64,000 nt of DNA from Patiria pectinifera. Lineage: Eukaryota > Echinodermata > Asteroidea > Valvatida > Asterinidae. Shown here in pieces: positions 5,787-42,021 of the stretch. Position 1 is the stretch's first letter. The number at the start of each line of letters is the position of its first letter. A model generated the notes under the pieces. The model ran no database searches. It was not told the DNA's origin and saw nothing but the letters and a program-made list of their open reading frames with translations. The stretch lies in contig CM057149.1 of the NCBI GenBank assembly GCA_029964075.1, positions 36,848,900 to 36,912,899 on the forward strand. The letters are read 5' to 3'. The translations under genes and the position numbers were made by a program.

Positions 5787-8761
5787 GCGCATACTCATTT
5801 TAAACAGCTACGAGTCCATTAAAGACGCCTTCGTGAAGCATTCAGCATTGGTTTCTGACCGTCCTAGTGTGTGGTCATTTACGTATGTCAATGAAAATCT
5901 TCAAAATGTTGGTAAGTATAATTATACTCGAAATTTGATCTACCCGGCTCCTGAGGCCTAATTACCTGCATTCCCTGAAAGATGCTCGTTTTATGCTTGA
6001 AGGAAATGACAGACAAAATGTCTTATGTCTTGGATCTCATTTTATCGGAATAGGCCTATGCCTGCATATTAAAGCTCTTAATGTTTGATTTTTACCTGTT
6101 ATATAAATAGTCAGTGAGGAATGTCAAACTCAAAAATTGGCACGATGACGTCATTACTTGACGAAAGGACGTCAACTATAGATAAAACTCGAAGTGAAAA
6201 ACCATTCGTCACAGTTTTACCAAATTCACCTTTAAATTGTCTTTGTGCAACCTTTAACGACTTTGTGAGGTTTCAGAATCGTGATATAAAAATGTGGTTA
6301 ACTAGTCTAAAACCCGTCGTGTTACGCCCTGGCCTTACAGAGACCACAAAATGGTAGGAACTAACTCGTGCTAGAAGGCACACTAACCCCTCGCTCCTTG
6401 ACCATTCCTCATTTTCAAAAACAGTACCAGCGCTGCAGTGCAAACAGGTTGTTTAAACAACATGTAATTTCAGTGCGTACGACCGGTACCCACAGCACCC
6501 CGTTTCCGCGAGCTTGCATGTCTCCCGTTTTCAGGCATGTGCACTTTAGGGGTGCAGACCAGTAAATCGGTCCGAAATTGCCTGCGCGGGCCAAATCGCG
6601 ATTTGCATGCCCTCAAAATCTTCGGTATTTGAGCATGCTGTGGCCCATGAACTTGAGGGTCTGTAAAAAATATGGGTGGAAGCCGTGCACAGGACTGGGA
6701 GCTTGCAGTTCTGTGTAATTTGGATGTAATTTGCACCCTAAAAGCGCTCTATTTTGCAATGGAGTGTAGGCATCGTTTTTCAAAATGGCGATGGGCTTCA
6801 GGACTATTTTCAGGGGTGATCGTCTTCAGATGGAAATTTCTCCTAAAAGTCATCAGTTGACCCCCCGTAAATTGAACAGAAAATGAAAGATGATGAAATA
6901 AGCTTTAATTTGATGGGTGTCTTGAACACCTTGGAGAGTTGTGAGTATTTTTCCCGAATTTTTGAAGTGGGAGCATTTACCATTGGGGTCTATGGAAGTT
7001 TATTTACTGGTCTGCTACCTTAGCAGGGACAACACATACCTGTGACCAAATCGTGTTTGCTTATGATATAATATGGCAAACGTAAGCGCAAAGATACGGT
7101 AGGACAAGGGTCTGATTTTTTTTTAATAGGCGTCAAACGCCCGAAGCGCTACTGCGCAAAGGAATTCCACCAGGTCATAAATGGAGCACGATAATAATTA
7201 ACATTATTATAAAGTGTTTTAGTTTATGGATTTTTTTTTTGGCACCGATGCGCGTTGTTCGCTCAGTCAAGTTTGTTTACTTTTCAAACAAGGTGTCTTC
7301 TTGGAGGCTTTCACCGAGAGTTGGAAGAGAGAGAAGAAGTACATGTTGCGAACCGTTCGTCAGTTTGGCTATGGTACCTCCGGCTCGGAAAGCATCACCC
7401 TCCAAGAAGCTAATCACCTAGCCGAGCTGATCAAGAAGAGGGGCGGGAAGCCATTTGAGCTCGGCCTCCCTCTCAGCCTCTGCCTCCTCAACGTGACCTT
7501 CTCCATGATCCTTGGTACCACCTACGAGGAAGATGACAAGGAGTTCAACAAGTTATTGGATTATGTCCTGTCGTGGTATCTTGAGGTCTTCATGCTCTAC
7601 GACATAGAGCCGCTTTTGCCCCTCTGCAATAAGTTCGGCCTCAGCCCTCGACTGAACAAGGGAAAGATGATGACAAAGGAGATGCTGGCGTTCGTACAGA
7701 AGCACATTGACAATCACAAGGCTACCCTGGACCCAGACCATCCTCGCGACATGGTGGACGCGTGTCTGATCGAGATGGCTAAAGGTGACCCCAACAGTGA
7801 CCTGAGAGAGTTCACCGACGAGAAGTTCTTGTGGATGCTCTTCTTCTTCATCCCGGACCAGGGAGACACGGCCTCCGGTCTATTCCTCTTCCTGATGCTG
7901 GCCACTGCCCTGCATCCTGAGGTGCAGCAGCGCGTCTTCCAGGAGATTCAAGACGTCATCGGGGACCGACCGCCTTCGCTGAAGGATAAAGAGAAGATGC
8001 CGTACACGGAGGCTGTTATCCTGGAGACCCTTCGCATGGATACCACCTTCTGGCTTCTGGTCCCACACTTCACCGCAGACGATGTTGAGATTCTCGGCTA
8101 CAAGATTCCAAAGGATACCACGGTCATTCCAAACATCTATGCGGTCCACTTTGATCCGGAGCTGTGGGGTGATCCGGAAAACTTCCGACCTGAGAGGTTT
8201 ATCGACGAACATGGCCGCATCAATCGACCAGATTACTTCATTCCCTACTCAACCGGTTGGTAACTTTTGAAAAATGTCACAAGACTTTATTATTGGTCAC
8301 CTTATTTCGATAAAATTAAAAATGATTCAGATTAGCTTTACAATCTGTGTTCAGAAGATACATGTATTGCGATTCCACAGGCCTTTCGAATCGCACCCAC
8401 AGAAAACATGCAGTTTTGAGGTCTTGCGTAGGGATAAAAAAAACTATATATATCCCATCGCACAGGACAATATATGGATAGAGTCAAGATATGACGATTT
8501 TAATCTTCACAGGCTCTTGATAAGACTTTAATGACAATCAGTGTCGACACCAGTAACAGTGTTGTGTCAATATTATGTACAGGACGCAGGTCGTGTGTCG
8601 GAGAGCAGATGTCCCAGAAACAGTTCTTCCTGTTCTACATCACTTTGATCCAGAAGTACAAGTTCAAGCTCCCAGATGGTGACCCCATACCCAAGTTGGA
8701 ATCGCAGTGGTTGTTTGTCAGCCCGCCCAATTACCGTCTGCAAGCAGAGCCCAGGGAGTAA
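5787..8761 (+). CDS. CYP2-clan cytochrome P450, copy A (exons 2-4 only in window)
   Basis: Heme-thiolate monooxygenase of the CYP2 clan. Exons are 5787-5911, 7293-8255 and 8583-8761, with lengths 125, 963 and 179 nt identical to copy B and no stop or frameshift. Visible motifs are WKREK (C-helix), PDQGDT (I-helix), ETLR (ExxR), FRPERF and a split heme loop STG/RRSCVGE. Exon 4 is identical in protein to copy B. Exon 3 differs at seven positions (K/E, D/G, P/S, M/T, F/L, L/I, H/Q) and exon 2 at one (A/S). Exon 1, with the membrane anchor and proline hinge, is not found in the 5.7 kb upstream. The homology to copy B stops abruptly at 5698 inside intron 1. It is either a 5'-truncated duplicate or has its exon 1 left of the window behind inserted DNA. 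Confidence 0.88.
6549..7019. mobile_element. 471-bp TIR element in intron 2 of P450 copy A
   Basis: The ends are inverted repeats around GCAGACCAGTAAAT (left) and ATTTACTGGTCTGC (right). The element is flanked by TTA on both sides (6546-6548 and 7020-7022). Copy B has the uninterrupted site near 24705, so the insertion postdates the duplication. It has no coding capacity. A 3-bp TTA target duplication fits PIF/Harbinger-type MITEs. Related, reversed sequence lies at about 34510-35782 and a fragment near 37300. Confidence 0.75.
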
Positions 8762-10065: not shown

Positions 10066-11271
10066 CACAGATACTGAGGAACAACTTGGTGGCCAGGGGT
10101 CACAGCTCTCACCAAGTTCATCGTGCCATTGCCAGAGCTAAAGCTATCCCCAGAAATCTAGCTCTCACGGGAAAGGCCCCTGATGCCATGGCCAAACCCA
10201 TGATTCCCTTGGTTACCACGTTTCACCCCAATCTTCCTCCCCTTCGCAAAATCACTAATGGCAATCATCATATCCTCCATACTTCAGATCGCCTTGCCCG
10301 CGCCATCCCCAACGGCCCAACATTGGCTTACAGGCGTCCTCGAAATCTACGGGACTTGATTGTTCGAGCTGAAGTCCCATCCTTAGATGCATCCCCTCCC
10401 ACCCAGCTTGGTACTTTCAAGTGCAGTTCCAGATGTGTTGTCTGCCAGATTCATATCCAGGAGTCTGACTCCTTTTCTGGCCACTCTTCTGTCACTACCC
10501 ACAGAACCATTGGTAACATCACTTGTAACACCTCCAATGTCATATATCTCATTTCTTGCAGGGTCTGTGGAGTGCAGTTTGTAGGTGAGACTAAGAATAC
10601 GCTCAAGAAGCGTTTCTATGCCCACCGGTCAACGGTCAACACCAAGAAACTAGACACCCCTGTTGGGCATCACTTCAACCTGCCTAACCACTCCATTTCT
10701 GATATGATTTTGCAGGGCATTGAATCTCTTGGCCATCGCAAGGACTCAGTTCGCCTCAGCAGAGAGAAAGTGTGGATGAATCGTCTTCGAACTATTCAAC
10801 CACATGGTCTCAACATCCAACTTGGAAATGATTAATCCTTTCCTTCCTCCATTGTCTTCAGTTACAGATAATCCATCTGGTCTTCCTTGTTTGTGTTTAC
10901 CCATCTTCCCCCATCTTTCATACCTTTCCACCTCAGTACTGTTCCCCCCCCCGCATCATCCCTTCACTCTCACACTCTTTTGTCCGTTCCCACTCCCTGT
11001 GACCTTTGATCCTTCCCCTTTCTGGTCCCTCCCCAGTTTACACCAGACCCCTTGTGGTTTGCCATCTCCCTTTGATTCTTTGTTCTCTCATCCACCCTCC
11101 CCTGCATCTTTCCACACCTTTCCCACCTAATCCTCCTTTTGTGTTTCTTCTTTCAGCCCTGCATGTTTGTGTGCACCCCCATGTTAATGTATGTACCTCT
11201 GTCATTTCTGTTTTAGCCTCTGAAGAAGAACTTGCCAAGTTCGCAACGTCAAGCCACATTAATTTTAAGAT
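10066..11271 (+). mobile_element. 5'-truncated Penelope-like retroelement
   Basis: This 1.2-kb insertion is in copy A and absent from copy B, where the empty site near 30100 reads AACTTTTATAAGTTT. A TTTTA repeat flanks it (10061-10065 and 11272-11276). The right part contains GAAGAAGAACTTGCCAAG followed by CGCAACGTC. That resembles the tail commonly seen at the 3' ends of Penelope-like elements. Only the linker and endonuclease coding part is present; the reverse transcriptase is missing. Confidence 0.85.
10071..10835 (+). CDS. Penelope-like GIY-YIG endonuclease domain (partial protein)
   Basis: The frame is open from the 5' truncation. It reads the conserved linker (PLVTTFHPNLPPLRK, HHILHTSDRLA, LAYRRPRNLRDLIVRAE), a Cys pair region (FKCSSRCVVCQIH) and then a GIY-YIG type endonuclease. 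The endonuclease shows VIYLISCRVCGVQFVGET for the Y..G region, the Arg in LKKRFYAH, the spaced His in VGHHFNLPNH, and EKVWMNRLRTIQPHGLN with the late Glu. The enzyme nicks target DNA to prime reverse transcription. It ends naturally at TAA (10833-10835). It cannot be autonomous without its RT. Confidence 0.88.
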   Translation: MLRNNLVARGHSSHQVHRAIARAKAIPRNLALTGKAPDAMAKPMIPLVTTFHPNLPPLRKITNGNHHILHTSDRLARAIPNGPTLAYRRPRNLRDLIVRAEVPSLDASPPTQLGTFKCSSRCVVCQIHIQESDSFSGHSSVTTHRTIGNITCNTSNVIYLISCRVCGVQFVGETKNTLKKRFYAHRSTVNTKKLDTPVGHHFNLPNHSISDMILQGIESLGHRKDSVRLSREKVWMNRLRTIQPHGLNIQLGND

Positions 11272-15358: not shown

Positions 15359-16949
15359 TTGCTCTGGGCAGGGGCTTTAACTTTATTCCCAACCTTAGAA
15401 ACCTTAAAGGTCGACCATCCTTCGCTACTTCCCACTCATTCTTCATAATGAGACTTCGTTTAAAATGGGAGGGAGAGTAAGACCGTCTGACTCGCATCCA
15501 TTCAAACTGCTGATGCCGATAACAAATCCTCATTTCCTTCCCCTTTAAATCAATTTTAATTCACGTCGGCAATTTTCTTGTTATTGTCCACCAATTCCTT
15601 GATTTTTGCCAGTACGTACCGGTTCTTTTTTTGCATAAAACACTTCTCTCTCAGAAATAGGCAAAACTTGACAAAATTAATCACCGGTGGCGGCCCCCTA
15701 AAAAAACATCCCCGTCCTTTAACTGATATGACTTGAAATGTATAGCGTAAAGTGCCTGACACGCTACTTTCGTTACACACGAACTCGTCCGCTGCACGTG
15801 CAGCAAGCTCCGTTAATACTTATAATTATCTCGTGCGCAGGAGATAATTATCTCGTGCGCACGAGATATATGTCGTGCGCACGTGATAATTATCTCGTGC
15901 GCACGAGATATTATGTCGTGCGCACGAGATAATTATGTCGTGCGCACGAGATATATGTCGTGCGCACAACATATATGTCGTGCGCACGAAATAAAAAATA
16001 ATAATTTTGGATGTCCCTTTAGGGGCTTCGTATAATAATGTAGGACATTCTGTTAAATGTATCTGTGTTGTTAATTCACAATTCCTGTCACTCGCTCATG
16101 CTCCGTTTCGAATCACGAACGGTCGGATTACATTATGCGACGCTCAAAATTTTGTCCACATGGTCAGCAATGACACAGAAATCACATCCGGTATGGAATG
16201 TGCGCAATTCTATGGGAAGTTTTCGGATAGCATTTGCGCACATTGTCTAAATGCGGTCACGAACAGCTGCAGCCAGATGCTTTATACATAGGTCATATTC
16301 CACTTCCTTCACAAGATTCTGTGAAGCTCATCAGAGTATCCCAGCGTCCTGTTTGCAGGGCGGGGGTACGAGCGAAGTGTTGATCACAGCGCGTCGTGGA
16401 GAACGGACGTGAATTGCGGCGTCTCGTGGAGAACGAACGTGTGTGTGCGTTGTCGTGTTGCTGCACTGACGTGCTGACGACTGGGCGAGGACACGAGGTT
16501 AGTAGCCGGAGACACACCGGGGATCTGAAGCTTGGTCTGTGTGTTGCTACCTCGTGGGCTGTATACACTGGGGCATCGGGAGTCCTGCCGCCGGTAACTT
16601 GGGGTTGCCTGATAATAAGTCGCAAAAGAGCGTGGGGGGGGGGGGCGGTGCGAATAGTCCACCCTTGATGCAGGTGCCGTTTCATTCAGTAATTATTGTT
16701 GATTAACTCTTACATTCTAATTGAACCCAATAGAGAATTAGGCTTATAACTTGATTGTCGTTGTTGTCTGATAAATAAAGGTGTCAGTGTCTGTTCCTTC
16801 AGTTTGTTCAGTCTGTCAGTTGGAGTCCCTCCCTATTAAGTGAACACCCTTAAGGAGACTACTTTGTACGTGTTGGCGGCAAACGGCCTTCCGAACGGAC
16901 GCATTCCCTAGGTCACCTAGATCACCGCTCGTCTAGGCTTACCAAAGGT
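15359..16949. other. Unassigned spacer between the duplication and the LINE cluster
   Basis: Apart from the palindrome array no gene is evident. 16290-16690 is GC-richer with a run of G near 16635. 16690-16930 includes an AATAAA-containing part and a GC-rich end, loosely resembling a retroelement terminus. Short open frames here (for example 16007-16291 +) show no recognisable domain. Confidence 0.4.
15826..15990. repeat. Tandem array of TCGTGCGCACGAGATA palindromes
   Basis: Roughly seven units of the palindrome CTCGTGCGCACGAG alternate with ATAATTAT or ATATATG linkers, themselves self-complementary. Periods are about 20-22 bp. One unit reads GCACAACATATATG, showing decay. There are no unique spacers. 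Confidence 0.85.
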
Positions 16950-17640
16950 TTAGTCAGGAGGCCAGGGCGACCCGAGTTGGGGGAGCCCCGGTACAATCAG
17001 CGCCACAATATCAAACAACTCATTTGCCGGATGAAATTCATCATTGATAGCACTGGACTTCTTCAATCTGGTAGTAAAAATTTCCGAAACTGACGGGAGA
17101 TCTCTACCCACAATACGTGTAGCCGACCTAACAACTCTCTCCAGTCCCCGCCGATTGGCCATGATCGTACTTCCATACCACACAGTGATGGACTGTATTA
17201 ACACAGTTTCCACCACTGCACGATAATACTTGACCAACAGATCACTAGATAAGTGGAAACTCTTGAGTCGACGAAGGTAAAACACCCCTTGTTGTGCTTT
17301 CCTAATGCAGTGATCAACATGGGCGTCCCAACATAAGTGATTTGATAAAGGAATACCAAGAAATTTGAAACCGTTCACAATTTCTACATTCTGCCCATTG
17401 ATAACAAGAGGAGAGATAACATTCAATCTTGAACGAAATTGACTATAATCTCCTTGTCTTCGCAGCATTGAGGCTCAAGTTGTTATCAGAGCACCACTCC
17501 GTTAAATGCTGAATTTGATTGCGATCATTCTGATTATCATTACCTTTAATCAACCCGACAACAGTCGTATCGTCAGCGTATTTAACAATTGTACAATCAT
17601 CAAATGAGGCAACACAGTCGTAGGTATACAATGGATACAA
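16950..17640 (-). pseudogene. Rex1/CR1-like LINE RT fragment, frameshifted
   Basis: Read on the minus strand, the first piece carries IVKYADDTTVVGLI, then HLTEWCSDNNLSLNAAKT. A frameshift near 17450-17468 leads to the second piece: FKFLGIPLSNHLCWDAHV, AQQGVFYLRRLKSF, LLVKYYRAVVETVLI and SATRIVGRDLPSVSEI. These are the RT catalytic YADD box and the thumb/C-terminal region of a CR1-clade LINE. It is truncated at both ends. At its 5' side (17637) it abuts the AGGTCA tandem repeat. Confidence 0.8.
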
Positions 17641-19232
17641 AGGTCAAGGTCACCGTGGTGAGTTAAAGGTGAATGGTTTCCGGATGATAACTTGTGTTAG
17701 AAATTAGATTTTGGTGTCTAACTAAGGTAGGGGGTTGTCCTTGGGAGTAGGCAAGTTGGGATTGGTTTTGGGGTCAAAAGGTCAAAGGTCAAGGTCACCG
17801 TGGTGAGTTAAAGGTAAATGGTTTCCGGATAATAACTAACTGTGTTGGACCGCAGCTATTTTCCTTGTATATTTACCCATTGTCAGACATAATCGGACAA
17901 CACCCGAGTAGAGTGTCAGTTTTCATTTTTATGCTGACGACATTCAACTGTATGTTTGCACTGATCCCCGAAAGCCTGGTGATATAGAGCAATCTCTCAC
18001 CGTTTGAACAACCTGTATCTCGGACAGCAACAAGTGGATGTGCCAAAACATGCTTCTCCTCAACCATGCAAAAACGGAATTGTTTGTCGCTGCACAACCA
18101 AAAATAAGTCAACTGTTACCCGAAGTCTCTCTCACGCTTGAAGATACCATAATCAAACCATCCCCTACTATAAGGAATTTGGGTGTTGTGTTCGATTCTG
18201 CCATGAGTATGTCTCAACATGTTTCCACACTTTGTAAAACGGTCAATTTTCATCTTAGGAGCCTGTCTCGCATTCGTAGCCTAATTGATGAAACCACATG
18301 CCACCATGCTGTGCGAGCTCTTGTCAAATCTCGATTTGACTATGGCAACTCTCTTCTTCAAGGATTACCCAGCAAAGACATCAAACGCATCCAACGACTC
18401 CAAAACAGAGCAGCCAAACTCATTTTTATGGCAAAAAAGTCAGACCATGTTTCGCCTCTTCTTCAACGACTTCACTGGCTTCCTATCAATGAACGAATCA
18501 TTTTCAAGTTATTAACAATCACTTATAATTGTTTGAGTGACAGTGTTCCGTCTTATCTCACTGAACTCATCACCCGTACCAGCCGAATCGTACCCTGCGT
18601 TCCAGTTCCGATACCAGAATCCTCATTAAACCCAAAACTCGTTCTTCAATCTCAGAAAAAGGTTTTTATGCAGCTGCTCCAAACCTCTGGAATAATCTTC
18701 CTTATGAAATCCGTCATGCCACTTCCCTCACTGATTTCAAAACATTGCTGAAAACACATCTCTTCCAGACTTAATTGCCCCATAAGTTGTTATTATTTCC
18801 TTTCATCGTTTTGTATTATACACTTTAATTGTTTTCTTGTGTAAAGCGTTGTGATACCAGTTTGTGTATTAAAGAACGCTATATAAGTGCCCTGATTATT
18901 ATTATTATTATTATTATTAATTGAGTTAGAAATGAGATTTTGGAGTCTAACTTTGGCAGGGGGTTGCCTTTGGGAGAAGCAAGTTGGATTGGTTTTGGGG
19001 TCTAAAGGTCAAAGGTGAAGGTCACCGTGGTGAGTTAAAGGTAAATGGTTTCCGGATGATAATTTGAGTCAGAAATGAGGTAGGGGGTTGCCTTTGGGAG
19101 TAGGCAAGTTGGGATTGGTTTTTGGGTCAAAAGGTCAAAAGGTCAAGGTCACCGCGGTGAGTTAAAGGTTAATAGTTTCGGGATGATAACTTCACTCTGG
19201 CTGAGGGGTTTCAACAGCAATGCTGTTATTTT
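17637..19232. mobile_element. Helentron-like tandem-repeat element split by a LINE
   Basis: Units with GGTCAAGGTCACCG, GAGTTAAAGGTAAATGG and TTTCCGGATGATAACTT lie at 17637-17845 and again at 18919-19190. They are interrupted by a plus-strand LINE (17846-18918). The right end reads GGCTGAGGGGTTTCAACAGC and closes with the small hairpin AACAGCAATGCTGTT before a T tract. The same right end is seen at 26868 in the intact copy. Confidence 0.65.
17846..18918 (+). pseudogene. 5'-truncated L2/CR1-like LINE with (ATT)n tail
   Basis: It starts abruptly at VGPQLFSLYI and continues through FYADDIQLYV (frame broken near 17930 and a stop near 18005). The best frame is 18038-18751, with NHAKTELFV, RNLGVVFDSAMSMSQHV, ALVKSRFDYGNSLLQGLP, RLQNRAAKLIF and LHWLPINERI. 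Another frameshift near 18660 puts FYAAAPNLWNNLPYEIRHA and FKTLLKTHLFQT in the next frame. The 3' end is a run of ATT (18893-18918), typical of these LINEs. Dead copy. Confidence 0.85.
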
Positions 19233-20725
19233 TCCAGCATATCAAGCCCAAAACGTGAAACAAGCCAGCTTAACAATATTTGCTATAACATACTAATCCT
19301 CCAAATCCATTTATTCCTGAAAACTGCAGCAAAAGCAAATGTTGTACATTCCCTCTAATGCATAAGGTCTATTGCACATTGCACATTATGGTACATGCAT
19401 TTTCGTACAGTGCCCGGCTGTAGAGTCCGATCGGCCCCTCCCCGCACATTATCGATCACCAACTTCTTGGATTGACACCCTGTCGCAACTCAAATACATG
19501 TACATGTATTATACCCAAAAGCAGATGCCCACTTTTGAACCTTCATACTTTTCGGCCACTTCAGAAAAGCAAACAAATGCATCGTCACAAACCGTTTGTA
19601 TTCGCGTATGTATTTGATACTGGAGAGATTTTGGGGTGAGAAAATTGGATCCAGATTGACCTTCTTGTTACCTTTTGGTCTTTTTATTTTTTTCTCATGT
19701 GAATACAGAGTGAGAGATATAAAGGAGATAACTTTATGACCACTGGACATGGGAATTAATTTTTATCAGTTATTTAGTGTGAAAAAAGGGCACAAATTGG
19801 ACACCAAAAATGTGACATGCAACATAAGGGGTTAGAACTCTTCTATTTCCTGATAAACTGTTATCTATTTTACTTCTTTTTGACACCTGATTTTTCCCAT
19901 AAATGGTTCTTGTTATAAATACTAGACTTTCCTATGGAAAATACTTAAAAATTCTTTAAAAAATGAGGAATATGAAAACTCTAACGTTTGTAACATTTGG
20001 TGTCCAATATGTTACATGTTTTGTGGATGTTGGTGTCTTTCGTTACGTACGTTAGATATCATGACATTAATGTCTAATAAATATCTCCCAATATGGTATG
20101 TACAATATTATACCACATTTTTGTACTTCAAATGACAAACTGATTGTAATAATATAACATTTAGTAACTAAAATTTACCAACAGCAAAATTTGAAGTGTT
20201 TTCTGTACATTTTGTGTAACGTTTGTAACGACGTCTTTCAGTACATTAATCAACTGGCCATTTGTCTATAATCCAAAGTCCTGGTCCAAATAGTTCGATA
20301 CTTCAAGTATTGGGCTCCCTGACTAATGCCAACGCATAACACATATCATAAGTTACCAACCTCATAAATGTTGTTTATAGCACAAACAGGACACCATGTT
20401 ACATACGTTACATTTGGATTTCAGAAAATAAATAACTGTGAAAAATGTACTTTTGTTTGAAAAACTATCTCTGTACTTTTAAGTTGCTTCCTACACATAT
20501 CATAGATTAAAATAAACACAGACATTTTACTGTTTTTTGAACTATTTTTTTTTTAGGTGCATGTCACACTTTAGTGACCCAGTATCTAAAACATACACAT
20601 TCATGTTTATCATGAACTACATACTTGGGTCAAAGTGCCACACTATATCGATAGTTGCACAGCTAAAATCGGTGCCTGGTAATCCAGGGTTTGCTGGGTC
20701 CTCAGAGACAGATCTGTCTGCCAAC
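19233..20725. other. Upstream region of P450 copy B
   Basis: No gene is seen. The region is A/T-rich, with scattered GTTACAT/TGTAAC motifs (19797-20410). 19233-19345 is related to 58855-58950 (AACGTGAAACAAGC block), a dispersed repeat. 20537-20725 is an open frame in phase with the P450 start, preceded by a T-rich AG (about 20556). It could be 5' UTR or an acceptor of a non-coding exon. A GGGTCAAAGTGCCA motif sits about 86 bp before the ATG. Confidence 0.4.
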
Positions 20726-23700
20726 ATGGCGATCACGGACAGAGTCATCTCCGTTTTGACAAACGCCAATTACATTTCTACCGTGCCTTTCCTCCTGTGT
20801 GCGGTCGTGACGTTCTTGGTCACGGCGCTGATATGGCGGCGACTGACGTACTGGAGCAAATACACCTGGCCGCCCGGGCCTCGGGGCTGGCCCTTGGTCG
20901 GTAATTCACTGCTGATCGCTCCACACTCTGGACAGACTAATGCCAACATCACCAGGATTGGAAAGCAGTACCATCCAGATATGTTCACGCTGACTTTGTA
21001 CTTTGGAAAGTAAGTAATTACTTTTCTTACTTCTCTGTGCCCCAAGAATTAGTACAGTTACCTCGCCACGAAAAATATTACAACCTGACGCCACTTCAGC
21101 GGTTGTGTACAAAGTCTGTGAAGAGTCAAGACAATTTTGTAAGTATTTCCTAACAAAATTGGAAATGTTTCTCAGTCCCAGATTCATGTCTCACCATCAT
21201 TTTTGCAATGACTGACCTTCATTGAGATGATATATGAAGAAGCATGTGGCGTCAGGTTGCAACATTCTTTCCCTTGCCTGAAATTTCCACTTTTTGGGAT
21301 GAAATTGAAATAGAAGGAAAGATTCCCATATCTGGCCATCACTAAGTTTTCCTTTCCGTGACCTATCAGCCATCTGACAGTGATAATATGTCCTAACCAT
21401 TTTCAGACCAATCTCATAGGGTTTGTGCACAGGGTGACAATTGATGGCCAGATACGAGAATCTTTCCAAATAGAACAAACCAAACCCGATCCGCATTTCT
21501 ATATGACTACGGCATGGCATGATTTTGATCAATTTTTAGTCAATTTTTTTTTGGTAAATTTGCGGGGACAAACAGACAGACGACAGACAGACAGACAGAC
21601 CGACTGACCGACCGACCACCAAGTGTCACACAGAAGCTCCCGCCACAGCTTAAAAAGAGAATTTTATTGCAACCCATTGTGTTTGTCAGTGGTAAATAAG
21701 AATGATCGCAGTAATGGGCATATTTTCTTGATTCAGTTTAAGAGATCCACGATTCTCCTAAAGCCAGATTTAATCATCATCAAAATAAAAAAAAACACCA
21801 GTTCTCTCTGGAGACGAATGAATGGCTTTAATCCAAATTTAGAACTGCTCTGTTGTGTGGTTTTCGAAATGTTTGATAGATTATCCAAGGTGTGGAGTCC
21901 ATGAGTCGTTGGTAATGTGCTGCACAGTGTAGAACAAATATTATTCTCAAATTTTACCAAAATGATCAAAGTGCACAACTGTTTGCTTGCGATAAATTTA
22001 GGGCTCACTATCATTCCATGTACGGTATCTGATACTGGACTTCAAGTACATGTAAACATGTATGTACAGACTGAACTCTGCAGCACTAAGAAGCTGATAT
22101 TCTGAACACTTAAAAATCATTTAAACTCACATTGTCTTTTTTTCAGGCGCATACTCATTTTAAACAGCTACGAGTCCATTAAAGACGCCTTCGTGAAGCA
22201 TTCATCATTGGTTTCTGACCGTCCTAGTGTGTGGTCATTTACGTACGTCAATGAAAATCTTCAAAATGTTGGTAAGTATAATTATACTCGAAATTTGATC
22301 TACCCGGCTCCTGAGGCCTAATTACCTGCATTCCCCGAAAGAAGTTCGTTTTATGCTTGAAAGAAATGACATACAAAATGTCTTATGTCTTTGATCTCAT
22401 TTTATCGGAATAGGCCTGGGCCTGCATATTAAAGCTCTTAGGAGTCATTTCGTGTAAATACTTCATATAAGTGTCCACGCTCAAAAACTGGGATGAAAGG
22501 ACTTGGGGAGCAAGTAACCAAAATAGACTTTTTAAACCTTTATTTTGCCCGTTGCCATGGTTTGCGGGCTATTATGTGTTTTGTCCATTTTTGTGCAACT
22601 TTGAGGCTGCAAAAAATCTTTCTTTTGCGTTATTTTCAAAGGTCATCAAGCCAAACTGCGAAGTAATGTCACAAAAGTAACTATGTCACGACAAAGATCA
22701 TCCTTACCCTTACAAGAAAAAAATAGAAGGAAAAAACGGTACAGATTGAAAGGTGAAATTACATGGGCTTCTCGCGCCAATGGCGGCCACGTTACATACT
22801 GAGCATGTATTGTTGTTAATTATATAGCCATGAATTTCAGTCTAAAGATGATACTTTTGTGATAGGTTTTGAAAATGGAAATATTTTTGACTTTAGTTTA
22901 TGAGCACCGATGTCTTTACATCGGTTGTCATACTACAGAAGCGTGTTTGGTGCCATGGTGACCACTGTTAAAAGTTTGGAAAAGTCACAAAATTTCATGT
23001 TGATCCGGCAAATACAAATTTGGAAGACACTTCCACTTAAAAAATACTTCAGACCCTAACTACATGTACAGTTTGTATATAGCCAAGTCAAGTCAGATTG
23101 AAATACATTCAATCAAATTGATGCTGTTTTCTCTCGGAGTTTTCACTGGAGTGATCCTTGTTTTGAAGAACATGTATTTCAATATAAACAAATAAGAGTT
23201 AGTTGCTGTCTTAATCGCCCGATCTTTTCCGTTTTGAAAATAACAAAATAAACGTCTTTTTGTTCACTACACCTTTACTGTAATTCCAAACGTAACTTGC
23301 AATATAAAAAAAATATGTACAGTGTACATGCGTGTGTCCAGATCACCCTTATATCGGTTTAAAAAGTCTATTGTCGTGACTTGCTCTCCAAGTAACGAAG
23401 TATAAAAAAATTCGAATTTTTGAGCGTGGACATTTATATGAAGTATTTACACGAAATGACTCTTAAAGGGACACAAGGTCCTGGAACAGCCCAATTGGGC
23501 TACAAAACGCGCTTTGAACGAGATGATGTTAATCGGAAATAACATTTAAAAGTAGGATATAAACATCCACACAACTATCCTTTCAAAACTTGGCGTTTTA
23601 GTGTTATTCCTGTATTATGCGTGCGAAAACGAATTTCGGGGTCCACTAAATTCGAGCTGTATGGATAGTTGTGAATTTATTCGTAAAATGTTCGCCTTTT

Positions 23701-26700
23701 GCGGACGTTGGAGACACCACTTTTTTGCATTGGTGATTGGTCACCGCTGTTCCTGAGCCACACAACATGTATATCGTACACTGAGAACGACACGAAAAAC
23801 GTTTTCGTAGTCCGTCGTGTCCGATGTAAACAAGCGGTTTTTTCGTCTTTTCTCGGGAACGGTAAGACTTTAAGTAAGATTTGAGGCTTTGCATGGTGGA
23901 AATGCTAAATAATGAAAGGTTTGCGGAAACACCATGTGCGAATAATTTCTCAACTGAGAGAATGGTTCTGAAAAGAACCAGAGGTATAAACTCGACGTTC
24001 CGGTCAGTATGCTCTGACCGTCTTCAGGAGACTTTAGGTTGGTTTCCTTTCAACCAGATGTTTGAAATAGGCGAAGTAAGCAATCCAACCAAAACATGAC
24101 ATTTTCGGGGATTTCAGGACCTAGTGCCCCATTAATGTTTGATTTTTACTTGTCATATAAATAGTCAGTGAGGAATGTCAAATACAAAAATTGGCAGGAT
24201 GACGTCATTACTTGACGAAAGGACGTCATCGTCTCCTGACGATGACTAGAGCAGGCTAGTCGAAACGTTGAGACCAAAGACAAGTTCTTTTAGAACGTAA
24301 AGCAGGACTGTTCTTATCAGAACAAAAACTACATTGCGAAAGTTGATAATAAGCAGGACAAGTTTTTTTCAGAACTAAATATCTTTTAAGCAATACATGT
24401 AGTTATTACCACATGGTGTTACCGCAAACCGAAACGATGACGTCAACGACAGTTTGAAGTGAACCATTTGTCACAGTTTTACCAAATTCACCTTTAAATT
24501 TTCTTCAGAATCATGACATCAAAATTTGGTTAACTAGTCTAAAACCCTAAAGCCCTGGCCTAGTAACAGAGACCCATAAAATGATAGGAACTGGTGCTAG
24601 AAGGTTGTTTAAACAAAATGTAATTTCAGTGCGTACGACTGGCACCCACAACACCGCATTTCCGCGAGCAACTGCATGTCTCCCGTTTTCAGGCATGTAC
24701 ACTTTAGTGGGGACAACACATACCTGTGACCAAATTGTGTTTGCTTATTATATAATTTAGCACACGTAAGGCCCTGTCACACTTCTGCGTATCCTAATTC
24801 CTTATGAGTTGCGCATTGACATTTTCTTCATACGCAGTCGTACGCACAATACGCACCTCATATGCATCTCTATCGTTTTGTGTAGGTTTTATGTACGCAG
24901 ATATACGCATGGTACGGCCCAGTACGCAGGATAGTTTTGGGCATGCCATGCACAAAACTACGCTGCGTACGCTGTTACGCAGGTCATAAGCATAGATATA
25001 GAATAAAAGTCTTTTTATTCTATATCTATGGTCATAAGTTATAAATACGCAGCGCATCTGTCCCGCATCGGTCGAGTGCGTTACGAGTACGCTATGTGTT
25101 CGTGACGCACCCCGTCAGCATATGAGCCGCCTTCATTGGACGTATACATAGCGTACTTGCAGCGCATATGCAACGCACGCTGGACGGCAAGCGGCGGAAA
25201 TGCGGCGGGAAAACGCTCAGAAGTGCGTCAAGCATGCGGTCGGCATAAGTCGGGTGCGTCCGGAATACGCTCGGCATGCGCAATGCATACTGTTTTCGCA
25301 GCCCGAAAAATAATGTTGTGCACTGCATACGCAACTCATACGCAATGGATGCGCTGAATTCGTTACTCGTACGCTAGATGTGCGTCGCACATAAGTCAAA
25401 GTGATCAAAACATTTCGACGTTAATTGAACGTTCGGCTGCGTATTGAAATTTTTTGATAAGGAACTCATAAGGAATTAGGATACGCATAGGTGTGACAGG
25501 GGCTTAATCGAATACTGTAGGACAAGGGTCTGATTTTTTTAACAGGCGTCAAACGCCCGAAGCGCTACTATAAATGGAGCACGATAATAATAGTAACATT
25601 TTAAAGGTGTTTTATTTAATGGGTTTTTACCCCTCAGCCGAGAGGCTCGAGTGGTATTGTCATCGCCTACGGCGTCCGTCCGTCCGGGCGGCCGTCCGTT
25701 CTGACCGTCCGTCCGGACGTCCGGCGGGCCGTCCGTCCGTCTGGGCAGCTCAGTTTCTGGATGATAACTTGAGTTAGAAATGTCATTTGGGATTGGAACT
25801 TCGGTAGGAAGTTGCCCTTGGGAGTAGGCAAGTTGGGATTGGTTTTGAGGTCAAAAGGTCAAAGGTCAAGGTCATCGTGGTGAGTTGAAGGTAGGCTAAA
25901 TGGTTTCCGGATGATAACTTGAGTTACAAATAAGATTTTGGTGTCTAACTTTGGTAGGGGGTTGCCTTTGGGTACAGGCAAGTTGGGATTCGTTTGGGAG
26001 TCAAAAGGTAAAAAGTCAAGGTCACCGTGGTGAGTTGAATGTCAATGGTTTCCGAATGATAACTTCAGTTTCAAATGAGATTTTGGTGTCTAACTTTGGT
26101 ACGGGGTTGCCCTTGAGAGTAGGCAAGTCGGCATTGGTTTGGGGGTCAAAAGGTCAAAGGTCAAGGTCATCGTGGTGAGTTAAAGGTAAATAGTTTCCGG
26201 ATGATAACTTGAGTTAGCAATGAGATTTTGGTGTCTAACTTTGGTAGGGGGTTGTCCTTGGGAGTAGGCGAGTTGGGAATGGTTTTGGGGTCAAAAAGTC
26301 AAAGGTCAAGGTCACCATGGTGAGTTGAAGGTAAATGGTTTCCGGATGATGACTTGAGTTAGAAATGAGATTTTGGTGTCAAACTTTGGTGGGGGTTGTC
26401 CTTGGGAGTAGACGAGTTAGGAATGGTTTTGGGGTCAAAAAGTCAAAGGTCAAGGTTACCGTGGTGAGTTGAAGGTAAATGGTTTCCGGATGAAAACTTG
26501 AGTTAGAAATGAGATTTTGGTGTCTAACTTTTGTAGGGGGTTGTCCTTGGGAGTAGGCGAGTTGGGAATGGTTTTGGGGTCAAAAGGTCAAAGGTTAAGG
26601 TCACCATGGTGAGTTAAAGGTAAATAGTTTCCGGATGAAAACTTGAATTGGACATTAGATTTTGGTGTCTAACTTAGGTAGGAGTTGCATTTGGGTACAG

Positions 26701-28392
26701 GCAAGTTGGGATTGGTTTGGGAGTCAAAAGGTCAAAAATCAAGGTCACTGTGGCGATTTAATGGTTTCTACGTGATAATTTACGTTACACATGATATTTG
26801 AGATTAGAATGTCAATTTGCCCTTTCGACAAACTGCGGCTGAGGGGTTTCAACAGCAACGCTGTTAATTTTTTTTTGCACTGATGCGCTTTGTTCACTCA
26901 GTCGAGTTTGTTTACTCTTCAAACAAGGTGTTTTCTTGGAGGCTTTCACCGAAAGTTGGAAGAGAGAGAAGAAGTACATGTTGCGAACCGTTCGTCAGTT
27001 TGGCTACGGTACCTCCGGCTCGGAAAGCATCACCCTCCAAGAAGCTAATCACCTGGCTGAGCTGATCAAGAAGAGGGGCGGGGAGCCCTTTGAGCTTGGC
27101 CTCCCTCTCAGCCTCTGCCTCCTCAACGTGACCTTCTCCATGATCCTCGGTACCACCTACGAGGAAGATGACAAGGAGTTCAACAAGTTATTGGGTTATG
27201 TCCTGTCGTGGTATCTTGAGGTCTTCATGCTGTACGACATAGAGCCGCTATTGCCCCTCTGCAATAAGTTTGGTCTCAGCTCTCGACTGAACAAGGGAAA
27301 GATGACAACAAAGGAGATGCTGGCGTTCGTACAGAAGCACATTGACAATCACAAGGCTACCCTGGACCCAGACCATCCTCGCGACATGGTGGACGCGTGT
27401 CTGATCGAGATGGCTAAAGGTGACCCCAACAGTGACCTGAGAGAGTTCACGGACGAGAAGCTCTTGTGGATGCTCTTCTTCTTCATCCCGGACCAGGGAG
27501 ACACGGCTTCCGGTATATTCCTCTTCCTGATGCTGGCCACTGCCCTGCATCCTGAGGTGCAGCAGCGCGTCTTCCAGGAGATTCAAGACGTCATCGGGGA
27601 CCGACCGCCTTCGCTGAAGGATAAAGAGAAGATGCCGTACACGGAGGCTGTTATCCTGGAGACCCTTCGCATGGATACCACCTTCTGGCTTCTGGTCCCA
27701 CACTTCACCGCAGACGATGTTGAGATTCTCGGCTACAAGATTCCAAAGGATACCACGGTCATTCCAAACATCTACGCGGTCCACTTTGATCCGGAGCTGT
27801 GGGGTGATCCGGAAAACTTCCGACCTGAGAGGTTTATCGACGAACAAGGCCGCATCAATCGACCAGATTACTTCATTCCCTACTCAACCGGTTGGTAACT
27901 TTTGAAAAATGTCACAAGACTTTATTATTGGTCACCTTATTTCGATATAACTAAAAATGATTAAGATTAGCTTTACAATCTGTGTTCAGAAGATACATGT
28001 ATTGCGATTCCACAGGCCTTTCGAATCGCACCCACAGAAAACATGCAGTTTTGAGGTCTAGCGTAGAGATAAAAAACTATATATCCCATCGCACAGGACA
28101 ATATATGGATAGAGTCAAGATATGACGATTTTAATCTTCGCATGCTCTTGATTAGACTTTAATGACAATCAGTGTCGGTACTAGTAACAGTGTTGTGTCA
28201 ATATTATGTACAGGACGCAGGTCGTGTGTCGGAGAGCAGATGTCCCAGAAACAGTTCTTCCTGTTCTACATCACATTGATCCAGAAGTACAAGTTCAAGC
28301 TCCCAGATGGTGACCCCATACCCAAGTTGGAATCGCAGTGGTTGTTTGTCAGCCCGCCCAATTACCGTCTGCAAGCAGAGCCCAGGGAGTAA
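20726..28392 (+). CDS. CYP2-clan microsomal cytochrome P450, copy B (complete, four exons)
   Basis: Exons 20726-21009, 22147-22271, 26928-27890 and 28214-28392 join in phase to 516 codons plus TAA. The Met at 20726 was chosen because it directly precedes an N-terminal anchor helix (residues about 16-36) and the hinge PPGPRGWP (49-56), the usual layout of ER P450s. Further motifs are W147/K151 in the C-helix, PDQGDT (324-329) where AGxDT is usual, E381-T-L-R384, PERF (436-439) and the heme loop STGRRSCVGE with Cys462. The family oxidises small lipophilic substrates with NADPH-P450 reductase. Intron 3 uses CCG/GTTGGT, a weak donor. Only this choice, not GTAACT four bases later, restores the heme loop. 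Intron 2 is 4.66 kb, swollen by mobile elements. Substrate and subfamily cannot be told. Confidence 0.92.
21010..22146. other. Intron 1 of P450 copy B with CAGA/CCGA microsatellite
   Basis: An inverted pair CAACCTGACGCCAC (21081-21094) / GTGGCGTCAGGTTG (21246-21259) may be the ends of a small element. CAGACAGA-type repeats turning into CCGA lie at 21568-21616, followed by CTCCCGCCACAG. The similar CCCGCCACAG also occurs just left of copy A at 5690-5698. No coding sequence. Confidence 0.5.
22441..23462. mobile_element. 1.0-kb TIR element in intron 2 of P450 copy B
   Basis: About 45-bp terminal inverted repeats begin GGAGTCATTTCGTGTAAA and end TTTACACGAAATGACTC. TTA flanks both sides (22438-22440 and 23463-23465). 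The empty site in copy A is at about 6076-6080. No transposase frame. PIF/Harbinger-like by the 3-bp TWA target duplication. Confidence 0.8.
23466..24131. mobile_element. 666-bp TIR element adjoining the previous one
   Basis: The termini AAGGGACACAAGGTCCTG and CAGGACCTAGTGCCCCA are imperfect inverted repeats. It shares one TTA (23463-23465) with its left neighbour and has TTA again at 24132-24134. The pair was therefore built by two insertions at the same trinucleotide. A fragment of the same family, including the GTTCTGAAAAGAACCAGA palindrome, is at about 38280-38402. Confidence 0.7.
24229..24438 (+). mobile_element. 210-bp Penelope-like 3' tail insertion
   Basis: The segment is absent from copy A and is flanked by GACGTCA (24222-24228 and 24439-24445). 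It opens TCCTGACGATGACTAGAG and contains GTCGAAACGTTGAGACC, a tail motif seen with Penelope-like elements. No coding part remains. Confidence 0.55.
24770..25504. mobile_element. 735-bp TIR element rich in TACGCA
   Basis: The left end GGCCCTGTCACACTTCTGCG and right end CATAGGTGTGACAGGGGCT are inverted. The arms continue with GTATCCTAATTCCTTATGAG and its complement. TAA flanks both sides (24767-24769 and 25505-25507) and copy A lacks it. The interior is crowded with TACGCA and its complement TGCGTA. No conserved frame. Confidence 0.8.
24991..25030. repeat. 40-bp perfect palindrome flanked by GTCATAAG direct repeats
   Basis: CATAGATATAGAATAAAA (24991-25008), loop GTCT, and the exact complement (25013-25030). 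GTCATAAG stands immediately left (24983-24990) and right (25031-25038). It is nested inside the TACGCA-rich element. Confidence 0.85.
25624..26868. mobile_element. Helentron-like (HINE-type) non-autonomous element in P450 intron 2
   Basis: Copy A lacks this block. The left part has ACCCCTCAGCCG (25629-25640) and the right part its complement CGGCTGAGGGGT (26837-26848). The end is the small hairpin AACAGCAACGCTGTT (26852-26866) before a T tract. Inside are a (GTCC)n-like stretch (25673-25745) and about seven units of a roughly 145-bp tandem repeat. Subterminal inverted repeats, a central minisatellite, a 3' hairpin and insertion in T-rich DNA are the known layout of Helentron-associated elements. 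No Rep/helicase is encoded. Confidence 0.6.
25848..26760 (+). promoter_or_regulatory. Array of AGGTCA nuclear-receptor half-sites
   Basis: At 25848-25874 four AGGTCA copies stand at spacings 2, 1 and 0. At 26151-26169 three stand at spacings 1 and 0. Related clusters, some decayed to AAGTCA or AGGTTA, recur near 26000, 26290, 26435, 26580 and 26725. AGGTCA-A-AGGTCA is the DR1 layout used by RXR-type receptors and TCAAGGTCA is the extended monomer site of SF-1/ERR-type receptors. Use in this gene is inference only; the array ends about 170 bp before exon 3. Confidence 0.4.
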
Positions 28393-34205: not shown

Positions 34206-34509
34206 CAAGATTTTCTTTCACTCACCTTTTATTGGGGAACAGATGAAGAACTTCAAGAATAAAGATGGCTGACTGACCTCAACATGCGGTTATTGTTTGT
34301 GAATAAAATTGAAGGGAAAAAAGGAGAAGTAATGATAAAAATAAAATTTGTTCTCAAACATAGAGCGGGCTTGTGTTTACCAATTCTTGTAGCTGTTTTG
34401 ATATTTTAATTATTTTCATAAGATCGTTAGTTATCCCTTCTTTTCATTAAATTTAATATGGCGGTAGCTGTCTTCAATGCGCGGCCTGCTGCACTCCAAA
34501 CAAACTTCA

Positions 34510-35782
34510 GGTTGCAGACCAGTAAATAAATTTCCATAGGCCCCAATAATAAATGCCCCCACGTCAAAAAATTCAGGAAAAATACAACTCTCTGAGGTGT
34601 TCAAGACGTACATCGAATTAAAGCTTATTTCATCATCTTTTATTAAGGGAATAACAGTGTGAGGAGCCGGTCTTCACTGCGTAATAATGACCGGGTGTGG
34701 GGGTGACCACTGTTAATGGACCGAGACGAAGTCGAGGTCCATTAACAGCGGTCACCCCCGGCCCACACCCGGTCATTATCACGCAGTGAAGACCGGCTCC
34801 TCACACTGTTATTCCCATTAATAAATACCTTTATAACGAAATAAACAGTTAAAATGCTCCAAATGTTCATGTTCATGGGCCATATTTTAGCTTAACAACA
34901 GCTACAACGACGTAAACTCAACAGAAACTGCTGCCGTAGCCGGAAACAAATTACAACAATGTTTTCATATCTTTACCTGATGGAGGAAGCTGAAATCTCG
35001 TTTACACATTCCTTGTGTCCGGAATTACAAAGATGCTTGGTTTAGGAAAGGTAAATATGTCGGTGGGTGAAGTGTTCAAAGAAAATAAATCGTAGATCTA
35101 CGCTTTCGTCGTAAACATCCTCAGTATATAATGCACTGCCGTACGATGTCGTTTCAAAACTTCCTTACGCGCACGCACGCACGCATCCCTAGCAACTGTG
35201 TTGCGTACGCGCGCGTCAGTCACGCGATGGGGGTTGAGCGCATGTGCAGTGCTCAACTGTTAAAAGCTACCGCAGGACTTTACTATATTTTGACCAATTA
35301 TTGGGGCTGGATCAATGCTGGTTCAGGGGCCATTTATTCGCTTGATCTTTGAAGCCGGTCCATTATCACCGTTAATGACCGGCCACGTGATCGAGTCTCG
35401 ACCAATCAGAAACCATCAACTCTCCAAGGTATTTATTAATGTCTGTTCAATTTTTGGGGGTTAACTAATGACTTTCGGGAGAAAATAAAATCCAAAGATG
35501 ATCACCCCTAAAAGCAGTCCTGAAGCCTATCGCCGCATTTTCAAAATGGACGCCTACGCTCCATTGCAAAATAGAGCCATTTTAGGGCCCAATCATCATC
35601 CACATTTCACAGAAATACGAGCTCGCAGTCCTCTGCACGGCTTCCAATCTTCTTCTTTTTTTTTTACAAATCATCAAGTTCACGGCCTTCTAAATGCTCT
35701 AATACTGAAGAATTCGAGGGCATGCAAATCGTGATTTGGCCGGCGTAGGCAATTTGGGACCGATTCACTGGTCTGCACCCTT
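34510..35782. mobile_element. Nested element cluster: relative of the 6549 element with later insertions
   Basis: GGTTGCAGACCAGTAAAT at the left and ACTGGTCTGCACCC at the right are the ends of a reversed relative of 6549-7019. It is interrupted between about 34641 and 35436 by an element with TTAATAAATACCTT / AAGGTATTTATTAA ends. That element is itself joined by a small foldback at 34647-34816. No coding frame. Confidence 0.55.
34647..34816. mobile_element. 170-bp near-perfect foldback
   Basis: GGGAATAACAGTGTGAGGAG through about 75 bases pairs with the complementary right half ending CACACTGTTATTCCC, with only a few mismatches. ATTAA flanks both sides (34642-34646 and 34817-34821). RNA from it would form a long hairpin. 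Confidence 0.85.
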
Positions 35783-38756: not shown

Positions 38757-41700
38757 CAATCAATCAATCAATCAAATCTTTACATTGTTCATTTTTCATT
38801 GTTCATTTATTTTCCACAGTGCCACACATTTTTAATGATCGTAATTAATACAAAAAAAGATACTATATAAACAGATAGTGAGACTGTAGAGGAACCCACT
38901 AAGAAGCTAAGCTTGTAATCGTAGGCCCCTTGTATACAAATTTAAAGTTGCTTTTAATACATAAGACACAGGACAGACAATAGACAAGGACAATACACAA
39001 ACTTTACATGCCAGTTAACAAGCAGGATAAGATTTGTTGCACAAGCAATTCTCGAAGTTAATGGGTTACACGGGATCATAATAATTATACAACAGGGTCG
39101 ATTTATATTTCCGTTTGAAAGTAGACAAATTTTTGGATGTTTTCAGGTTCTCGGTAAAGGAGTTCCACAGCCTGGGTCCCTCATATCTAATAGTTTTTTG
39201 GGCTAAAGTTGTGCGAGTCAATGGGAGATGAAAGTTAGAGACTTGACGAGTATAATGGGAATGAACATCAAAATTCCGGGTAAAAATTGAAGTAATGGAA
39301 GATGGTGAGGTGCCTGAAGCAGATTGATACATTAGAGACCCAAGCTGGTGGAAATAAATATCTTTAACTTTCAAAATTTTGTGTTTGAAAAATAGGGGAT
39401 CAGTATGGGCATTAAAATCAGTAAAATTAATTATTCGAAGAGCCCGTTTTTGTAAAAGGAAAAGCCTATTGAGATTACCGAGGGAACATGCTCCCCAGGC
39501 TAGAATACCATTACTGAGGTACGACAATATTAATGTATTATACAGGAAACTAAAATTGTGGGAGGGATAAAATATTTGATCTTGTTGATGACACCTATGT
39601 TTCTCGCAATAATTTTACATAAATAATCTATATGATTAGTCCATGTTAATTTAGAATCTATATATAATCCAAGAAATTTAAGACAATCTGCTTTTTCCAT
39701 GGCCATGTCATTAATTAATATGTTGGAAGGAGATTACTGGCAGTTTTACTAAATAAAATATAGTTGGTTTTCTTAATGTTAAGTGACAGCTTATTAACTG
39801 CAAACCAATTACAGATAGATTTTAACTCATAATTAACTGTGTTAGTGAGAGTAGTCAAATTGCTATTCGAGATAAATAAGTTGGAGTCATCAGCAAATAA
39901 AATAAATGAAAATACATCAGATGATTTAACAAAGTCATTAATATAGATCAGAAAAGCAATGGGCCCAAAATTGACCCCTGTGGAACACCACATTTTAGGG
40001 CCTTACAAGTTGAATTTGAACCGCCTATAGATACATACTGTTGTCTGTCTGAAAGGTAACTTCTGAACCACTCTAGGGCTACTCCTCGAACACCATAATA
40101 AGAAAGCTTATATAGCAAAATGTCATGATCAATGGTATCAAAAGCTTTTGAAAGATCGAGGAATATCCCCAGAGTGTGTTCAGAGTTATCCATAGCAGTT
40201 GTTACTTTATCAACAAAATCAAGTATTGCATGTGTAGTTGAATGATTACTTCTAAATCCGTATTGACAGTCAGTTAAAATATTACATTTATTAAGAAATT
40301 GAATAATACGAACATAAACACATTTTTCAAAAATCTTTGAAAAACAGGTCAAAATAGAAATGGGTCTATAATTGATAACTGAATGAAGATCACCATTTTT
40401 AAAAATAGGAACAACCTTGGCAGTTTTAAGTGAGTTAGGAACAATGCCAGTTTTAAAGGAAGCGTTGATAATGTGAGTAATAGGTCTACTGATGACAGTT
40501 ATAGTGTTTTTAATAATAGAAGAGTTAATCAGGTCGTGACCGGAGCTTGTTTTGTTCTGTAAGTTGTTGACGATATCAATCACTTCCTGTTCAACTACTG
40601 GTTGTAAAAACAAAGACCTTGGGTTCGGATCATTAAGAAAATCAACAAATGAACCATGTGAACTAGGAATATTTTTAGCGAGATTAGGGCCTAAATTAAC
40701 AAAATAATCATTAAAGCAATTTGCAATATGAGTAAAATCATTGATTAACTTGCCTTCATGCATGATACTACTAATATGTTGAGAGGATAACTTATTATTA
40801 AGGACTGAATTTATGACCTTCCACGTGTTATGAATGTTGTTCTTTTCCTTCTCAAACTGACAAACATAATATTGCTTTTTAGAATTTCGTAAGAGACTAG
40901 TCAAAATATTTTTATATTTAATATATTTGAGTTTCCGCATGTTTGTCGGATTAGCAATGTAATGACGATATAACTTATTTTTCTTGTTAATTGATTTAAG
41001 AAGAAGTTTAGTAATCCACGGGGCAGTTTGGTTAGAATTAGACTTTGATGTGGGCTTATGTAAATTAGGTGGAATATTTTTATCAACTTTATCATTGAAA
41101 TTGTCAATAAATAAATTAAATGCATAATCGGGATTATCACAGGTAGTAATGTTAGACCAGTCGGTTGCATGCAGATCTTCTTTAAGCCTCTGGATATTAA
41201 AATGAGTGAATTTACGGGAACCAACATAGTTAAAATGATTAGAGGAGGCACTAGATTTATGGGAGGACATTATCATAAAAATTGGTAAATGATCGGAAAT
41301 ATCAGACAAAATTATGCCTGAGTTGGGAGATGGTAACACATTCGTCAAAAAATTATCAATTAGCGTAGCAGAAGAATCAGTTATTCTAGTGGGCTTATCA
41401 GTTAATGGTAAAAAAGAATAAGAAGTAATGAGATCAGTAAAAGCCTGTGTGCTGGGGGCTGTATGATTGAGTAAATTAATATTAAAATCCCCAGAAATAA
41501 TACAATTTTTGTTGGAAGATGTCATTCTACAAAACAAATTTTGAAAAGGTGGTAAAAAATCAAGTACATTGACAATTGGAGGTTTATATAAGACGTCTGT
41601 GATAATATCCTTAGATTTGGTAAACGAAATTTCAACAAAAAGAGATTCTAAAACATCTTCAGAATGGGTAAGATCCTGTCTAATTTTAAAATCGAGGTCA

Positions 41701-42021
41701 CAGGAAATATACAGAGCTACGCCTCCACCCATCTTTTCCTGTCTGTTATTAACAATGAGTTTATACCCTGGTAAAAAAATAATAATTATGGGGATATGTT
41801 TTCAGCCAGGTTTCAGATAATGCGATGACCGAGAACTTATATTTCAATGTAAGCAACAAAAGTTTAAGTTGATCGAAATGTTTTTGAAGACTCCTAATAT
41901 TGATATGAAGTAGAGAAAATCCATCAATATTTTTATAGGTCCCCGAGAACTGTTCACTAGAGTAATATTGTGAATTATTAAATAAATGGAAAGGATTATT
42001 TGGGTCAACATAATCAGGCAT
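38757..42021 (-). pseudogene. Near-full-length CR1/L2-like LINE ORF2, several frameshifts
   Basis: On the minus strand the protein begins at 42021 (MPDYVDPNNPFHLF) with the endonuclease N-terminus (LLHINIRSLQKHFDQL, VIALSETWL). A frame change near 41760 leads into 41732-39948. That frame has the rest of the AP-type endonuclease ([19 protein letters not shown]), a basic linker, and RT blocks [52 protein letters not shown] and [14 protein letters not shown] further shift gives 39993-39715, with LFADDSNLFIS as the YADD-equivalent FADD box. The tail is 39527-39066 (LQKRALRIINF, GPRLWNSFTENL). The 3' end is a (CAAT/ATTG)n run at 38757-38772. At least three frame breaks make it inactive. Confidence 0.88.

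Follow-up and report, generated by a model that had tools for sequence, protein, structure and literature searches.

We analyzed a window of 64,000 nt from Patiria pectinifera (contig CM057149.1, positions 36,848,900 to 36,912,899; the window is this whole stretch) and found that an element in intron 2 of a P450 gene is very probably an ordinary HINE, a non-autonomous Helentron, which entered one of two gene copies after their duplication and whose nuclear-receptor half-sites are the standard cargo of a repeat. Four observations carry this reading: the anatomy of the element, an empty site in the paralogue, the presence of the half-sites throughout the family and a conservation of the half-sites that does not exceed that of the rest of the unit. 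At the focal locus, the half-sites showed no detectable constraint or improvement. An earlier note on this DNA had proposed that a Helentron-like element delivered receptor half-sites to the intron and could have rewired its gene; the Helentron-like insertion, the empty site and the half-sites are real, while selection or rewiring was not borne out.

Two P450 copies and an intronic HINE

20726..28392, + strand: copy B, a CYP2-like P450 gene with coding exons 20726-21009, 22147-22271, 26928-27890 and 28214-28392
5787..8761, + strand: copy A, coding exons 2-4 (5787-5911, 7293-8255 and 8583-8761)
7226..7240, + strand: empty site in copy A, a T-run with approximate bounds that matches the copy B flanks at 25628 and 26868 (copy A alignment)

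Judged by their sequences, both P450 copies are of the CYP2-like type; copy B matches Pfam p450 with an E-value of 8.1e-89, and its best solved relative is human CYP2D6. Each copy consists of four exons that add up to 1,551 coding bases and are free of internal stops, and the splice signals of the two are identical. A broken paralogue was rejected because copy A keeps the reading frame through all four exons, of which exon 1 falls 7.6 kb ahead of the window start (L009:2358-2642). Copy B is thus not the sole intact P450 that the earlier note had implied; copy A is equally intact.

Between the coding sequences of the two copies there are 33 base and 11 residue differences (dN 0.0096, dS 0.065), and the three longest aligned blocks differ by ~4-6%. 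Differences of this size bear on an alternative in which A and B are two haplotypes that the assembler set in tandem, making the insertion an allele difference. The published assembly has a reported heterozygosity of 5.16% and a length of 615 Mb, compared to a k-mer estimate of 426 Mb (PMC10511450), figures that favor such an alternative and that probably describe another release (615 Mb, 22 + 1,458 pieces) than the one analyzed here (613,548,705 bases, 1,020 contigs). However, the 20 kb preceding the window and the window itself as far as position 46562 contain no N run, which places A and B on one gap-free stretch. Identity falls to 87-90% near exon 1, the flanks past the duplicated block have no match, and the duplicated BUSCOs are reported at 2.1% (PMC10511450). 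We consider the haplotype explanation unlikely. An assembly gap of 500 N occupies 46563-47062.

The aligned blocks of A and B run in order through both copies and are interrupted at the element; at the aligned position the T-run of copy A is unbroken, and, as the earlier note had claimed, the array is absent from the paralogue. The empty site carries no duplication beyond the Ts. Ordered blocks that break at the element, together with the T-run in copy A, fit an insertion after gene duplication, and we infer that the gene duplication came first and the HINE insertion second.

Intron 2 differs between the copies at other places as well. A further insertion in copy B, absent from copy A, occupies 24767-25506; it has inverted ends of ~80 bp that are 78.6% alike and contains many TACGC-like words. 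Conversely, copy A intron 2 has a stretch (6552-7017) that copy B lacks at the corresponding position; segments of this stretch align in reverse with 34509-34644 and 35442-35780.

25624..25629, + strand: T-run and A before the 5′ end, TTTTTA (sequence)
25630..25654, + strand: 5′ inverted repeat CCCCTCAGCCG with an internal inverted repeat
25673..25741, + strand: degenerate CGTC/GTCC tetranucleotide microsatellite (Tandem Repeats Finder)
26836..26846, + strand: 3′ inverted repeat CGGCTGAGGGG, complementary to the 5′ inverted repeat
26851..26865, + strand: 3′ palindrome AACAGC-AAC-GCTGTT, followed by AA and a T-run

By its anatomy, the focal element (~25630-26867) is a HINE, and the Helentron-like identity proposed in the earlier note is supported by this anatomy and by the empty site in copy A. 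We compared the element ends with eight loci by Blast and counted motifs over 28 loci. The anatomy common to the family begins with TTTTTA and CCCCTCAGCCG with its internal inverted repeat; a GTCC microsatellite and between 5 and 15 unit matches come next, and CGGCTGAGGGG, AACAGCAACGCTGTT and a T-run come last. Longer copies carry several tens of half-sites per element. Since this family-wide anatomy matches the HINE features described in PMC7492417 and PMC4067079, the assignment to HINEs is made by anatomy.

One inverted repeat marks the 5′ end and a second lies slightly inward of the 3′ end (CCCCTCAGCCG and CGGCTGAGGGG), each present in 27 of the 28 loci with at most three substitutions (over 21 bases for the 3′ repeat). 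The internal inverted repeat has a GAGA loop, followed by GGCTCGAGTGG in the focal copy and by GGCTCGAGGGG in most copies. The start is T-rich in 24/28 loci (at least four Ts in the six bases before the 5′ module), the end is T-rich in 21/28, and a GTCC-type microsatellite pattern occurs in 18/28. A microsatellite (25673-25741) and central tandem repeats (25753-26753) are both present. The 3′ palindrome, in its exact form in 22 of 28 loci, could form a stem-loop on its sequence; folding prediction for the DNA of 26827-26870 gave a structure only slightly more stable than those of shuffles (z = -1.94) and favored another pairing over the simple hairpin. The T-rich insertion without target duplication was observed at one empty site, that of copy A. 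No coding capacity of its own is apparent in the list of ORFs of at least 100 aa: those touching the element are a 103-aa frame on the minus strand at its left end (25539-25850) and the P450 exon frame, which runs from 26843.

The HINE would have inserted into the T-run of copy B intron 2 by rolling-circle transposition, with the enzymes presumably supplied by an autonomous Helentron partner.

Half-sites in the focal array and across the family

25753..26765, + strand: tandem array of seven ~145-bp units with one to four RGKTCA half-sites each (Tandem Repeats Finder, unit profile)
25848..25874, + strand: block in unit 1 with four AGGTCA at spacings 2, 1 and 0 (sequence letters)

Tandem Repeats Finder delimits the focal array at 25753-26753, with a period of 145 and 6.9 copies, and with a unit profile we obtained seven matches spanning 25753-26765, which carry 4, 1, 4, 3, 2, 3 and 2 RGKTCA half-sites, respectively. 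The array that the earlier note had described (about seven 145-bp units with one to four half-sites each) is thereby confirmed, as is its densest block of four half-sites in 27 bp, whose letters are AGGTCA-AA-AGGTCA-A-AGGTCA-AGGTCA. The distance from the array end to exon 3 (26928), given there as about 170 bp, is 174 bp; the element itself ends (26867) ~60 bp before the exon.

We counted receptor motifs on both strands of 25624-26927 and compared them to 500 dinucleotide shuffles of the same sequence. AGGTCA occurred 15 times (shuffle mean 0.80, maximum 4) and TCAAGGTCA five times (mean 0.02), while DR1, DR0 and DR2 occurred two, three and three times (means 0.01, 0.00 and 0.01). Receptor-type arrangements (DR0, DR1, DR2 and TCAAGGTCA) therefore exceed chance in the focal element, and the DR1- and TCAAGGTCA-type sites named in the earlier note are present both by their letters and by this test. 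The counts lie so far above the shuffles that chance base composition is ruled out as the source of the half-sites, which are copies of one repeated unit and hence not independent of each other. Outside the focal element, and with a second HINE counted in, the window holds 44 AGGTCA (mean 30.2, maximum 45, 20 shuffles).

The family set comprised 211 units from 27 loci and the window, each covering at least ~110 model positions (214 matches, of which three short ones were dropped). The unit consensus is built around a run of GGTCA with A-runs of falling length in between (GGTCAAAA GGTCAAA GGTCAA GGTCA), so that its block reads as GGGTCA-N2-AGGTCA-N1-AGGTCA-AGGTCA. Half-sites were found in all 27 further loci examined, and every non-focal unit has at least one RGKTCA (204/204).

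We detected no extra conservation of the half-sites over the rest of the unit in these 211 units, which come from the best matches to the focal copy rather than from a random sample. Half-sites match the consensus with an identity of 0.929 and the remaining positions with 0.922, and the half-site block is surpassed in conservation by 36 of the 117 windows of 27 bp. A smaller set of 74 units gave 0.928 for the half-sites and 0.928 for the rest. The half-sites were rejected as the most conserved part of the unit on both sets. In the focal copy, half-sites have diverged by 6.5% and the rest of the units by 9.4%, a difference in the direction expected under constraint (p = 0.30). Single loci among the other groups deviate both ways, with less divergence at half-sites in L047 and L053 but more in L008 and L041 (p <0.02, uncorrected). 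All p-values on units assume independence, and units of one array are not independent.

Compared to the other copies examined, the focal array is poor in half-sites. Its mean of 2.71 RGKTCA per unit, against 3.47 in non-focal units, is the lowest of 29 groups, and an intact DR1 remains in 2/7 focal units compared to 143/204 others (Fisher p = 0.032). The differences in TCAAGGTCA (5/7 focal units versus 181/204, p = 0.20) and in units with all four half-sites (2/7 versus 104/204, p = 0.28) are not significant. By its sequence, the focal array thus represents the unit found throughout the family in a normal or somewhat degraded state. The claim that the array was selected or rewires its gene is unsupported: the block of four half-sites is the family consensus, it has no extra conservation, and the focal mean count is the lowest. 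On half-site counts alone, the array holds no more half-sites than other copies of the unit; half-site numbers no higher than in unit copies far from genes were part of what the earlier note had named as speaking against its own proposal.

We suggest that the HINE brought in a satellite-like array of 145-bp units in which the half-sites would be passengers of the repeat, probably neutral at the focal locus. A motif array that looks designed can be the standard cargo of a dispersed repeat, and comparison within the family is a useful control; without the other copies, four half-sites would resemble a local innovation.

A second HINE and possible effects on copy B

17636..19233 (about), + strand: second HINE, of the same family as the focal element, with the 5′ module missing and split by an insertion at ~17838-18912

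The second HINE lies 1.5 kb upstream of the copy B start codon. The insertion that splits it has an ATT run at its end and holds a 247-aa frame without a Pfam match. Half-site constraint in this copy, suggested by its three units (p = 0.008), was no longer seen with the larger alignment (p = 0.25).

In each gene copy, we scanned 5 kb upstream, introns 1 and 2, and the interval from exon 3 to exon 4, using simple patterns rather than matrices and the generally known DR1, ERR and HNF4 receptor consensus sequences. Copy B contains six DR0, three DR1 and six DR2, all within its two HINEs; none of the three was found in these regions of copy A with the same patterns. TNAAGGTCA occurs once in copy A and 12 times in copy B, 11 of them inside HINEs. 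The scanned regions of copy A hold no HINE array, compared to two in copy B. In favor of the earlier note, all DR0, DR1 and DR2 sites in the scanned regions belong to copy B, spread over a pair of HINEs instead of a single one. Should any of these sequences be regulatory, the upstream array would be a better candidate than the intron array.

That all such matches fall in copy B favors an explanation in which its two HINEs would act as nuclear-receptor enhancers and would have changed the expression of B relative to A. Precedents exist in part: receptor sites in Alu repeats are reported to bind in vivo (PMC1785376, PMC3252374), and the ISX helitron is reported to have spread MSL sites on the young X of Drosophila miranda (PMC4384637). 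We nevertheless regard this explanation as improbable, since the half-sites are a family-wide consensus without extra conservation and the focal array is poorer than other copies. There is likewise a slim chance that HINE pairs with ready-made half-site clusters would have put one fresh P450 duplicate, and not the other, under receptor control. Should binding be demonstrated, the family would be well suited to testing whether receptor control is spread by satellite-carrying Helentrons, and the intact, nearly identical paralogue with the empty site next door would offer a ready comparison.

The insertion could instead act via splicing or transcription length. It ends at ~26867, close to exon 3 at 26928, and intron 2 spans 4,656 bp in B compared to 1,381 bp in A. 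However, the last 60 bp before the acceptor were retained and align with A, and the splice signals are alike in both copies, making an effect of this kind highly improbable. An ordinary HINE with half-sites as repeat cargo is the reading that we retain.

Known elements, abundance and other features

The closest description is that of Cg_HINE in the Pacific oyster, which has a left module with an 11-12 bp inverted repeat, an internal inverted repeat and a GTCY/GTCC microsatellite, a 140-180 bp satellite-like repeat array, and a right module with an inverted repeat and a palindrome; its insertion sites are T-rich and without target duplication, and some copies lie in or near genes (PMC7492417). 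The Patiria pectinifera HINE resembles it in all of these modules, as compared by description rather than by sequence and across different phyla. Nuclear-receptor half-sites are found in the Patiria pectinifera unit and go unmentioned in the portions of PMC7492417 consulted.

Drosophila DINE-1 and a mite HINE are described with subterminal inverted repeats, a microsatellite, central repeats and a 3′ stem-loop, a preference for TT, no target site modification and, in DINE-1, an internal inverted repeat (PMC4067079). The likeness of the Patiria pectinifera HINE to them is one of anatomy and not of compared unit sequences. An autonomous Helentron partner is known for DINE-1 and the mite HINE (PMC4067079), whereas the Patiria pectinifera HINE was assigned by anatomy.

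Like the Patiria pectinifera HINE, Alu is a dispersed repeat with receptor half-sites in its consensus; it carries DR2 and HNF4 sites, with binding reported by ChIP (PMC1785376, PMC3252374). When half-sites belong to a repeat consensus, many sites arise without selection at each place. Alu differs from the HINE in being a SINE whose single copies hold few sites and for which ChIP demonstrated binding; the sites of the HINE are tandem and were read from sequence. The ISX helitron of Drosophila miranda is similar to the focal HINE in that it carries and spreads a protein-binding motif, but this motif is reported to have been made by deletion and improved by selection, with binding shown, and the focal HINE has no sign of such refinement (PMC4384637). 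Transposons near P450 genes were already known (PMC1852546), as were repeats with receptor half-sites. Our literature search found no match to the unit sequence, and matches to the half-site block were, judging by titles, not about transposons.

A first look at the genome (613,548,705 bases, 1,020 contigs) gave 511 candidates, which is not a count of confirmed copies; 40 of these were scored, yielding 100 match rows. On contigs C20 and C21, 18 sampled regions, each 10 kb long, were free of units, which sets an upper limit of ~10,250 copies (95%, random scatter assumed). These 18 regions (179,500 bases) hold two TCAAGGTCA and four DR1, and because they are so poor in both, the HINE family may be the source of a fair share of such composite sites genome-wide. 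Two unit patterns also occurred in viral contigs, in 6 and 2 stretches. Only L036 fits the unit profile, weakly (13.9 bits, E = 0.0015) and within the half-site block; we therefore read the viral-contig matches as chance.

Several other features were observed in the window. An array of a 22-bp near-palindromic unit with GTGCGCAC occupies 15822-15994. The duplicated block includes a 309-aa frame (9906-10835) whose GIY-YIG match scores 21.6 bits against a Pfam cut-off of 22.6; GIY-YIG is typical of Penelope-like elements. On the minus strand, a 617-aa open frame (39948-41801) presumably resembles a non-LTR reverse transcriptase, and another open frame (49487-49897) resembles what we take to be an exon of a renin-binding protein / N-acylglucosamine 2-epimerase.
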